From assembly GCF_014645535.1 (NCBI RefSeq), contig NZ_BMLX01000001.1, positions 799,169 through 863,168 of the forward strand: DNA of 64,000 nucleotides. Direction: 5' to 3'. The DNA comes from Silvimonas iriomotensis (GTDB taxonomy: Bacteria > Pseudomonadota > Gammaproteobacteria > Burkholderiales > Chitinibacteraceae). How positions within the stretch are numbered: position 1 is the stretch's first letter; each line of letters starts with the position of its first letter. Below are positions 15,988 to 17,156 of the stretch, in pieces. The notes beneath the pieces are model-generated. The model saw only the letters and a list, made by a program, of their open reading frames with translations. It was not told the origin of the DNA and made no database searches. Made by a program: the position numbers and the translations under genes.

Positions 15988-16254
15988 TCAAACATGGCCG
16001 GCAAACCGATACAACTTATCCGATGAGGCCAATGCTAGTTCAGTTCGACTGATCCACCATCCATCCCACTCCATGAGCATTCCGGATGACGTGGTACCCA
16101 AGCTTGCCCGGTATGCGTATTGCTTGGACTTGCCTGTCTCTGGGTCTGTGTAGAGGTGTTTCAGGTCCTGAGGGACGACGATTCTCAGATGGTAAGCGGT
16201 GGAACCAGTGCGTAGATGTACGCCAGGAGGTAGCGGTGTGCTCATAGTCTTCAT
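15988..16254 (-). pseudogene. Tyrosine-type phage integrase, N-terminal remnant
   Basis: From the ATG at 16254 the frame reads about 56 residues that match integrase N-termini: PPGVHLRTGSTAYHLRIVVP, then DLKHLY and YRASLGTTS. This is the pattern of arm-type DNA-binding domains that begin with a short arginine- and tyrosine-rich strand. After about base 16087 the similarity stops and unrelated residues run to a stop at 15988. The catalytic domain with its R-H-R-Y residues is absent. It starts about 120 bp from the tRNA-Gly 3' end, as for site-specific integrases. Confidence 0.65.
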
Positions 16255-16374
16255 GCTCGAATTATCGCAGCAACTGACACAGTGCAGTGACACACGCCAG
16301 AGAAAAAAATAGCCCGGAGGGCGCATCCAGACTGGCTATCGCTTATCTGGCAAGGCTTCCGAGCAATTTTAAAC

Positions 16375-16399
16375 TGGAGCGGGCGATGGGAATCGAACC
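16375..16399. repeat. tRNA-proximal att repeat
   Basis: Second copy of the 25-bp repeat found at 15448-15472. It lies within the intact tRNA-Gly gene. Confidence 0.75.
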
Positions 16400-16448
16400 C
16401 ACGGCACAAGCTTGGGAAGCTTGGGTATTACCATTATACGACGCCCGC
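16375..16448 (-). tRNA. glyU: tRNA-Gly, anticodon CCC
   Basis: The complement reads GCGGGCG...CGCCCGC-T-CCA with encoded CCA. The D-arm is GTAT/ATAC, the anticodon stem CAAGC/GCTTG with loop TTCCCAA (anticodon CCC), and the T-arm GTGGG-TTCGATT-CCCAT. It closely resembles E. coli glyU. It reads codon GGG and is intact despite serving as an integration site. Confidence 0.95.
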
Positions 16449-16527: not shown

Positions 16528-16848
16528 CGTGACTGGTCACGTTTGGCGGCGCTTCAGAAAGCGCGACTAGTCACGTCTTGCGCAGTGCCAGATTTGGCGG
16601 CAAGTCACATAAGGGGCGGGTTGTTGCTCCTGTCTTTTGTCACACAAATGCGTGACCGGATTGTGTGGCTGTCACGTATTTCTATCTTGATGATTTTTAT
16701 GGAAATTGTGTTTTTGTGACGCGCCGCGATTGTGGGTGGGTGATGGGTCACAAAAATGTGGATTTTTCGCATTCATTTTGCATAAAAAGCTTGCTTTATT
16801 TTGTGACTTGTCACATAATTAGATCATCTTATTTCGTCGCAAGTCACA
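16528..16848. promoter_or_regulatory. Array of 13 GTCAC(A/G) half-sites before the RHH gene
   Basis: Half-sites GTCAC[AG] or its complement start at 16528, 16536, 16570, 16604, 16639, 16651, 16671, 16715, 16747, 16802, 16810 and 16843, with one degenerate copy near 16562. Three pairs form inverted repeats with a 2-bp spacer: 16528-16541 (CGTGAC-TG-GTCACG), 16562-16575 (one mismatch) and 16802-16815 (TGTGAC-TT-GTCACA). Fewer than one GTCAC/GTGAC would be expected in 320 bp by chance. The array fills the gap between tRNA-Gly and the RHH gene and overlaps its promoter. The natural inference is cooperative binding by the encoded RHH protein. Confidence 0.7.
16791..16819 (+). promoter_or_regulatory. 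Promoter of the RHH gene with operator in the spacer
   Basis: TTGCTT and CATAAT are separated by exactly 17 bp. The perfect palindrome TGTGACTTGTCACA (16802-16815) occupies the spacer. Bound repressor would block RNA polymerase, which predicts autorepression. Confidence 0.6.
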
Positions 16849-16862
16849 CAAGGAAACTGATC

Positions 16863-17156
16863 ATGAAGCAAGCTGCCGATACGATGACCGCTGAGCTGCC
16901 AGGTCTTTCTATGGTGTTGAAGCGGGGTCGGCCGTGTGTGGGTATGCGGCCGATGACGGCTGCAGAGCGCAAGCGCCGCAGTCGTCAAATGCGGATGCAA
17001 AGTGCGTTGTTGTCGAGCGATGTGACCAGCGTGCAAGTGCCGGTACAACTCAATGCAGTGGTGGATGAGCGCACGCGCCGCCTGTTGCGCCAGCGTGCTG
17101 CAGAGCGCGGCCTGACCATGGGCGAGTTGATCGATCAGCTGATGGTTCATCTGTAA
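16863..17156 (+). CDS. Putative ribbon-helix-helix DNA-binding regulator
   Basis: Small basic protein of 97 residues. The N-terminal half carries KRGRPCVGMRPMTAAERKRR, a charged extension like those of plasmid CopB/RepA2 and related repressors. The C-terminal half fits a ribbon-helix-helix fold: strand SVQVPVQL, helix VDERTRRLLRQRAAER, turn GLT, helix MGELIDQLMVHL. The ATG at 16863 has AAGGA 8 nt upstream. It is preceded by 13 GTCACA-type half-sites, one inside the promoter spacer and one next to the ribosome site, so autoregulation is likely. It adjoins the tRNA-Gly integration scar, so an origin in mobile DNA is possible. The exact family and targets are unknown. Confidence 0.65.
   Translation: MKQAADTMTAELPGLSMVLKRGRPCVGMRPMTAAERKRRSRQMRMQSALLSSDVTSVQVPVQLNAVVDERTRRLLRQRAAERGLTMGELIDQLMVHL

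Follow-up and report, generated by a model that had tools for sequence, protein, structure and literature searches.

A run of GTCAC/GTGAC half-sites in front of a small regulator gene in the soil bacterium Silvimonas iriomotensis is best read as the operator array of an inovirus-type autorepressor, whose gene resides in the chromosome beside tRNA-Gly; this reading is drawn from sequence comparison. The locus occupies positions 16,528 to 17,156 of a 64,000-nucleotide stretch of contig NZ_BMLX01000001.1 (the window), and the window's own genome (G000) was compared with those of three Silvimonas congeners (G001, G002 and the more distant G003). In the proposed mechanism the chains of the 97-residue protein would dimerise through a C-terminal ribbon-helix-helix (RHH) domain, and an N-terminal module, composed of an AT-hook-like RGRP core and a basic helix (MTAAERKRRSR), would read the GTGAC/GTCAC half-sites. 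Binding at 16803-16814, between the putative -35 and -10 elements, would block the gene's own promoter, and the extra half-sites over 320 bp would allow more dimers to assemble, so that repression would be sharpened or buffered. The protein belongs to a family of module proteins that is frequent in filamentous phages (inoviruses); in these the module gene is found after one to three inverted GTNAC pairs and carries varied C-terminal domains. Autorepression appears to be the simplest account, because an operator in or beside the regulator's own promoter region recurs in the family and in phages. The features on which this reading depends are the following.

16863 to 17156, plus strand: gene of the 97-residue regulator, N-terminal module followed by an RHH-like C-terminus.
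16923 to 16985, plus strand: N-terminal module (residues 21-41, RGRP...MTAAERKRRSR), AT-hook-like core and predicted basic helix, in which Ser40 tracks the half-site.
17025 to 17153, plus strand: RHH-like region (residues 55-97), probable dimerisation domain, from the AlphaFold2 (AF2) model, Foldseek, PDB profiles and the homolog L017.
16529 to 16847, no strand: array of 12 GTCAC/GTGAC half-sites, starting at 16529 (minus), 16536 (plus), 16570 (plus), 16604 (plus), 16639 (plus), 16652 (minus), 16671 (plus), 16716 (minus), 16747 (plus), 16803 (minus), 16810 (plus) and 16843 (plus).
16529 to 16540, no strand: exact palindrome GTGAC-TG-GTCAC, which forms the end of the array nearest the tRNA.
16563 to 16574, no strand: near-palindrome GCGAC-TA-GTCAC (GCGACTAGTCAC) with one mismatch, identical letters in G001.
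16803 to 16814, no strand: core operator GTGAC-TT-GTCAC, flanked by the putative -35 and -10 elements and identical in all four Silvimonas genomes.
16791 to 16819, plus strand: putative promoter TTGCTT-17 bp-CATAAT (16791-16796 and 16814-16819), which encloses the core operator and is proposed from conservation.
17021 to 17026, minus strand: thirteenth half-site, GTCACA, within the coding region of the 97-residue gene.

Twelve half-sites lie within a 321-bp span that starts at 16529, against 0.57 expected from the window's other 114 sites, and this is the densest span of that length in the 64 kb. When the 413-bp segment 16450-16862 was shuffled 5000 times with its dinucleotides preserved, no more than five half-sites appeared, and GTCAC was the top 5-mer of this segment when the strands were pooled. 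An initial annotation of the DNA had placed thirteen half-sites in 320 bp before the gene, with a chance expectation below one; the expectation was borne out and twelve of the sites are where it put them, but the thirteenth is inside the gene. Likewise, two of its three inverted pairs with a 2-bp spacer are exact (those at 16529 and 16803), and the third departs by the one mismatch at 16563-16574. On a larger scale no such excess was seen: GTCACR was found 65 times over the whole 64-kb window against 66 expected, and the full palindrome four times in G000, two of them in the array, against six in a reversed control, with values at or below the control level in all four Silvimonas genomes. Since the palindrome is not enriched genome-wide, the local array would be the main target visible by sequence. 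Same-strand half-site triples numbered 11 and 5 in G000 against 6 and 4 in the controls, and were not above the controls in G001 (2/7 vs 13/8), G002 (7/5 vs 18/7) or G003 (5/5 vs 14/15); the array alone, among the 16 triple rows of G000, contains three overlapping triples. Another G000 palindrome, at C1:790522, was set aside; it overlaps the 3′ end of an open reading frame (ORF), and GTGACTAGTCAC was not listed for G001 or G002. Separately, GTGACCCGTCAC was observed outside the array once in each of three of the four Silvimonas genomes (L064, G001:C10:77046 and G003:C1:1228547).

Comparison within the genus shows that the array is conserved. Nine of the 12 window half-sites are retained in G001 and nine in G002, and among G000-G002 the half-site columns are 94-100% identical versus 56-66% for the other intergenic columns, so that the check proposed in the initial annotation, a comparison in related genomes, gave conserved sites in two congeners within intervening DNA that has diverged. 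Upstream of the core promoter, 29/34 site columns were invariant in the three species, versus 60/173 of the others (p = 6e-8), and column identity in G003 was 73% at the sites versus 50% elsewhere. The four Silvimonas genomes carry 12, 9, 10 and 6 half-sites within 400 bp; at the place of the exact palindrome 16529-16540 none was listed for the three congeners. The gene itself gave nonsynonymous divergence (dN) values of 0.009-0.117 within the genus and synonymous divergence (dS) values of 0.5-2.2 (dN/dS about 0.02-0.10), and this low dN relative to dS indicates that it is maintained under purifying selection. The suggestion that the locus is still in use is upheld by these ratios together with the retention of the array in two congeners. 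Of the named relatives that turned up, Silvimonas amylolytica is the closest, and its version of the protein is 98% identical to that of the window. Furthermore, the stretch from TTGCTT to CATAAT is alike in the four Silvimonas genomes except for two bases in G003, and it is this conservation that favours the promoter. The inverted pair had been placed exactly in the 17-bp promoter spacer; it is there, but its last base touches the first base of CATAAT.

The RHH assignment concerns the C-terminal part of the protein. The AF2 model, a monomer without a strand (mean predicted local distance difference test score 69.8), has helices at residues 33-50 (over the module), 69-82 and 86-96, and its best Foldseek matches were RHH repressors (Arc, CopG, ParG, TacA and AmrZ), weakly, with E values of 0.8 or worse. 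Profile matches in the PDB were to ParG (E = 0.027), the closest solved sequence, and to the RHH protein 2kel (E = 0.032), and the Pfam family RHH_10 was matched at E = 0.03, below its cut-off. The gene had initially been called an RHH gene, and for the C-terminus this stands, weakly; the N-terminal module had not been mentioned. A homolog from the genus Deefgea, L017, scored above the Pfam RepB-RCR_reg (PF10723) cut-off (33.5 vs 21 bits), and the window protein gave no PF10723 row at E = 1 and matched NCBIfam PRK13702 below its cut-off (E = 0.0032, 17.5 vs 87 bits). The proposed CopB-type kinship is supported mainly through L017, since the window protein remains below the family cut-offs. Phage protein families also matched weakly, and are listed as of unknown function (PHROG 6334, E = 1.3e-4). 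When the whole protein was used as query, 32 of the 37 genomes of its own family matched versus none of 24 genomes of other families (32/61 in total), and of the 30 matched loci with DNA, 13 showed an exact GTGAC-N1/2-GTCAC in the 400 bp before the gene. Several other family loci have one intact half-site and a degenerate partner, five loci of genus g7 (L009-L013; named members mostly Iodobacter) have GTGAC and GTCAC 14 bp apart rather than 1-2 bp, and L029 has no GTGAC/GTCAC half-site near the gene start. No plasmid or phage-record homolog was found by whole-protein tblastn at E = 0.01, nor with the module consensus.

The most conserved part of the family is the module of residues 21-41, not the RHH region, and R21, G22, M31, A34, R36, R38, S40 and R41 did not vary among the 22 sequences aligned, which are all Ser-type. 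The window protein has the RGRP...MTxAERxRxxR N-terminus of the inovirus module group, and its gene follows an inverted GTNAC pair, as in about half of that group (a script chose both the start codons and the modules; the hutH, fusA, replication-gene and helical-domain labels used here were given by eye). Module profiles matched 41/399 genomes of the order, 12/369 genomes of the class with the Tyr-type profile, and 53/399 genomes of the order with the Tyr/Met/His-type profile; one locus, L032, had entered by DNA pattern, and the same gene was also found by protein profile (G042). Comparison with viral sequences shows the association of these relatives with inoviruses: the profile matched 54 viral contigs, Zot, a protein of filamentous-phage assembly, was found in 42 of the 50 of these records examined, two Inoviridae records have the module, and in L111 the module gene lies directly after zot. 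Unlike such relatives, the window gene does not adjoin zot. The Silvimonas copy may be of phage ancestry. The same module recurs with C-termini that are RHH-like, helical (by eye) or coiled coil (crude score). It was also observed before a nucleotidyltransferase domain in L161, L162 and L173 (NTP_transf_2, E = 8e-7 in L161, the one tested), and GTGACggtGTTAC was observed upstream in L161 and L162; these proteins may be regulators of the toxin-antitoxin type.

The relation between module and operator was analyzed on 121 distinct modules, reduced to 86 representatives at 80% identity by greedy clustering, with clusters lacking a pair kept. Single-linkage clustering was discarded, as 85/121 modules fell into one mixed cluster; L191 was removed before the counts, and the set excludes repeated module stretches as well as rows that had <60 bp of DNA before the gene. 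Where module position 10 (which is Ser40 in the window protein) is Ser or Gln, 18 clusters had GTGAC pairs, none GTAAC pairs and 16 neither, and where it is Tyr, Met, His, Phe or Leu one cluster had GTGAC pairs, 23 GTAAC pairs and 27 neither, a single Ala cluster having neither. The Fisher test gave 5e-11 for these clusters, which are related, and at 50% clustering the split was 13:0 vs 2:13 (p = 3e-6, one tie). When single half-sites were counted, 30 of the Ser/Gln clusters leaned to GTGAC, one to GTAAC and three to neither, and the Tyr-type clusters leaned 5, 32 and 14, respectively. The commonest inverted 5-mer within 200 bp upstream was GTGAC/GTCAC for the Ser/Gln modules (18/34, next best 3) and GTAAC/GTTAC for the Tyr/Met/His/Phe/Leu modules (21/51, next 6); background windows contained the former pair in 16/2225 cases and the latter in 31/2225. 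Position 10 alone splits the operator types with one error in 40. Among 33 representatives fetched later, all of the Tyr type, 16 had GTAAC pairs, none GTGAC pairs and 17 neither. Genus g5 (L027, L029, L030, L145 and L146) has one module gene of each class, Ser and Tyr, on opposite strands and separated by 1.2-1.3 kb, with GTGAC before the Ser-type and GTTAC before the Tyr-type gene in L027 and L030, and GTTAC only in L029. The association shown by these comparisons holds across RHH-like, other helical (by eye) and coiled-coil (crude score) C-termini.

In Arc, CopG and MetJ it is the beta-sheet that reads DNA. It is possible, though we consider it unlikely, that here as well the RHH beta-sheet reads the half-sites, that the module does something else, for instance by giving non-specific affinity for DNA, and that the link between residue and operator reflects shared ancestry alone. 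The RHH fold is a known DNA-reading fold, and the partial independence of the clusters and the choice of the position after the first examples would both accommodate such an explanation. However, GTGAC pairs are also found before modules whose C-termini look helical by eye (L025, L028 and L113), GTAAC pairs before proteins that join the module to a coiled coil, the invariant residues of the 22 Ser-type sequences are in the module, and the split persists at 50% clustering. These sequence comparisons suggest that the N-terminal module tracks the operator better than the RHH part does.

The coiled-coil relatives invite a comparison with the basic leucine zipper (bZIP) factors of eukaryotes, which we offer as an analogy. 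The crude coiled-coil score picked 25/108 proteins; the window protein was not among them, so that it does not share the zipper of a bZIP. One phage protein picked by this score was modelled as a single helix over residues 34-108, most confident at 61-100, in which the module passes continuously into the coiled coil. Half-sites were abutting in 15/18 spacer counts for the coiled-coil-scored proteins, as in most coiled-coil members that have a pair, and 1-2 bp apart in 29/40 counts, with 0 bp in 10, for the other proteins; this trend is confounded with kinship, because a good many of these phages seem to be near-copies of one another. The TGAC/GTCA inside the Ser-type half-site resembles bZIP sites. 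In contrast to a bZIP, the window protein would have an RHH-like part in place of the zipper. A short phage ORF in L285 (1636-1869) was also noted, in which the module is joined to a leucine-zipper-like coiled coil (bZIP_2, E = 0.043, below cut-off). In a wider reading, to which we give an even chance, filamentous phages and their hosts would share a bZIP-like module, made of the AT-hook-like core and the basic helix, that reads 5-bp GTNAC half-sites and whose fusion partners can be exchanged (RHH, coiled coil, further helical domains, even a nucleotidyltransferase); the residue at the place of Ser40 would set the middle base (Ser/Gln for GTGAC; Tyr/Met/His for GTAAC), the dimeriser would set the spacer, and the Silvimonas array would be a captured and expanded chromosomal example.

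Several observations weigh against the autorepressor reading and the residue-operator link on which it draws. The putative -35 TTGCTT has 3/6 bases of TTGACA and a consensus promoter scan reported no promoter, so that the promoter claimed in the initial annotation is left with its conservation across four genomes; moreover, G003 retains 4/12 of the window half-sites, and the RHH assignment is made from weak scores only. As for the residue-operator link, no such pair was present within 200 bp in 16/34 Ser/Gln and 27/51 Tyr-class clusters, the half-site counts lean the wrong way in one Ser/Gln and five Tyr-class clusters, and L179 is an exception to the rule. Position 7 (Lys37) predicts the operator nearly as well (two errors in 40), the position and the two classes were picked after first examples that sit in the test set, the loci fetched later brought zero fresh Ser/Gln cases, and the module proteins are related, so the clusters are not independent. 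A tree of phage versus chromosome ancestry (52 rows, 24/49 inner branches open, six label changes; the inovirus labels of L025 and L102 entered it without a Zot check) was poorly resolved and favoured neither. Finally, the operator of CopB was considered as the same site and rejected, since no GTGAC pair was found near copB in three plasmid loci, which had a single GTGAC or GTCAC only.

The inoviruses of Silvimonas bear on another explanation. The Zot search, which covered 23/37 family genomes, gave no match in G000 and matches in G001, G002 and G003. In these Zot-bearing stretches, the module genes have Met (G001), Met (G002) and Leu (G003) at the code position, and those of G001 and G002 have GTAAC pairs, which makes it unlikely that the chromosomal protein acts on these phage module genes. 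In G003, three of the five exact palindromes precede a Zot gene at the same distance of 3086 bp, within another inovirus that is apparently present in three copies and carries GTGACTAGTCAC (L207 2249-2260, L208 11698-11709 and L209 7589-7600); in the one copy read, GTGACTAGTCAC is just before a small gene that follows a probable replication gene (by eye). Nine viral-contig candidates for relatives of this small gene were tried and none was confirmed. The chromosomal gene could accordingly be conceived as a superinfection-immunity gene, whose protein represses incoming filamentous phages with GTGAC operators while the array sets its level. We hold this to be somewhat unlikely. The G003 palindromes, the different predicted specificity of the module genes in the Zot stretches and the lack of a Zot match in the window's own genome fit the idea, but the cases are very few, and three copies of the G003 phage are still present alongside the chromosomal gene. 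In addition, only L198 among the ten Zot loci L195-L204 showed a GTGAC pair, although the flanks scanned there were 1.5 kb long and miss the G003 site, and two filamentous-phage papers, in the portions consulted, attribute immunity to different kinds of repressor (PMC8402870, PMC5608472). The support for a role in phage immunity, or in host control of phage, is thin, though such a role is possible.

CopB of plasmid R1 is, by profile and through the homolog L017, the nearest studied relative. CopB/RepA2 of IncFII plasmids (PF10723, PRK13702) resembles the window protein in being a small repressor with a short N-terminal basic stretch of the AE[RK] type followed by an RHH-like part, and the excerpt available describes CopB as a tetrameric repressor of an internal repA promoter (PMC4344636). 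The window locus is on a 1.47 Mb contig, its neighbours being tRNA-Gly and ORFs that by eye look like hutH and fusA, and is therefore not part of a plasmid replicon with a rep gene to control, as CopB is. The initial annotation had suggested a partition, silencing or dosage-control relic; a partition (centromere-like, ParG/omega-type) or nucleoid-silencing relic we regard as very improbable. The form of the array and the profile match that makes ParG the closest solved sequence would agree with it. Against it, no partition gene was recognised by eye among the ORFs overlapping 10-24 kb (no ParA profile search was made), tblastn gave no plasmid homolog, the palindrome is not enriched genome-wide, at 4 vs 6 in the control, and the locus stays beside tRNA-Gly in all four Silvimonas genomes. 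The features beyond the array are as follows.

16375 to 16448, minus strand: tRNA-Gly(CCC), transcribed away from the array.
15988 to 16326, minus strand: ORF beyond tRNA-Gly, possible remnant of an integrase N-terminus (DUF6538, E = 0.00045, 20.3 vs 27 bits, below the Pfam cut-off; we take DUF6538 to be an integrase marker).

The adjacency to tRNA-Gly that had been annotated was thus confirmed in all four Silvimonas genomes, and among 16 loci scanned the tRNA neighbour was found at the Silvimonas loci only. Rfam gave the tRNA and no RNA leader at the locus. As the array lies between two divergent genes, the half-sites might belong to an unrelated host regulator of tRNA-Gly or of the gene; this we judge extremely improbable, because the site also stands ahead of module genes from different families and from phages, and because none of the scanned loci outside Silvimonas has a tRNA.

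The closest printed description found is that of an AT-hook-motif protein encoded downstream of pI (Zot) in filamentous prophages of Cupriavidus and Ralstonia, for which regulation of host or prophage genes was postulated (PMC10011098). As far as the accessible part of that paper goes, and compared by description only, it shares with the window family the N-terminal RGR motif and the place after pI, and differs in that no operator, basic helix, residue-base link or chromosomal members are given. ORF13 of the filamentous phage PMBT54 is likewise an RHH regulator in such a phage, described in the section seen as omega-like and likened to plasmid copy-control repressors; compared by description only, it differs from the window protein in that no module or operator is given there (PMC10534721). 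Arc, CopG, ParG, TacA and AmrZ would share the C-terminal fold, to which the window family adds a conserved N-terminal module that tracks the operator. According to the excerpts at hand, RptR is a small bacterial autorepressor with several short palindromes over its promoter, speculated by its authors to be a primitive bZIP-like regulator, and differs in being a four-helix protein that recognises TAGCTA (PMC12255303; compared by description only), and Pf4r, the repressor C of phage Pf4, has several motif sites at its own promoter and differs in being a helix-turn-helix protein on non-palindromic sites (PMC8402870). No paper describing the operator-module link was recognised in open-licence PMC text.

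Autorepressors with several operators are already familiar. If the reading proposed here is true, a module that keeps its half-site while the C-terminus is swapped, with one residue tracking one base, would constitute a simple recognition code in filamentous phages, whose families that match the window protein still carry the label "unknown function". Specificity groups could then be defined from sequence alone, a compact tool for repressor design would be at hand, and a bacterial and phage case would become available for comparison with bZIP factors. It would also account for a chromosomal gene that most genomes of this bacterial family carry beside its own binding sites.
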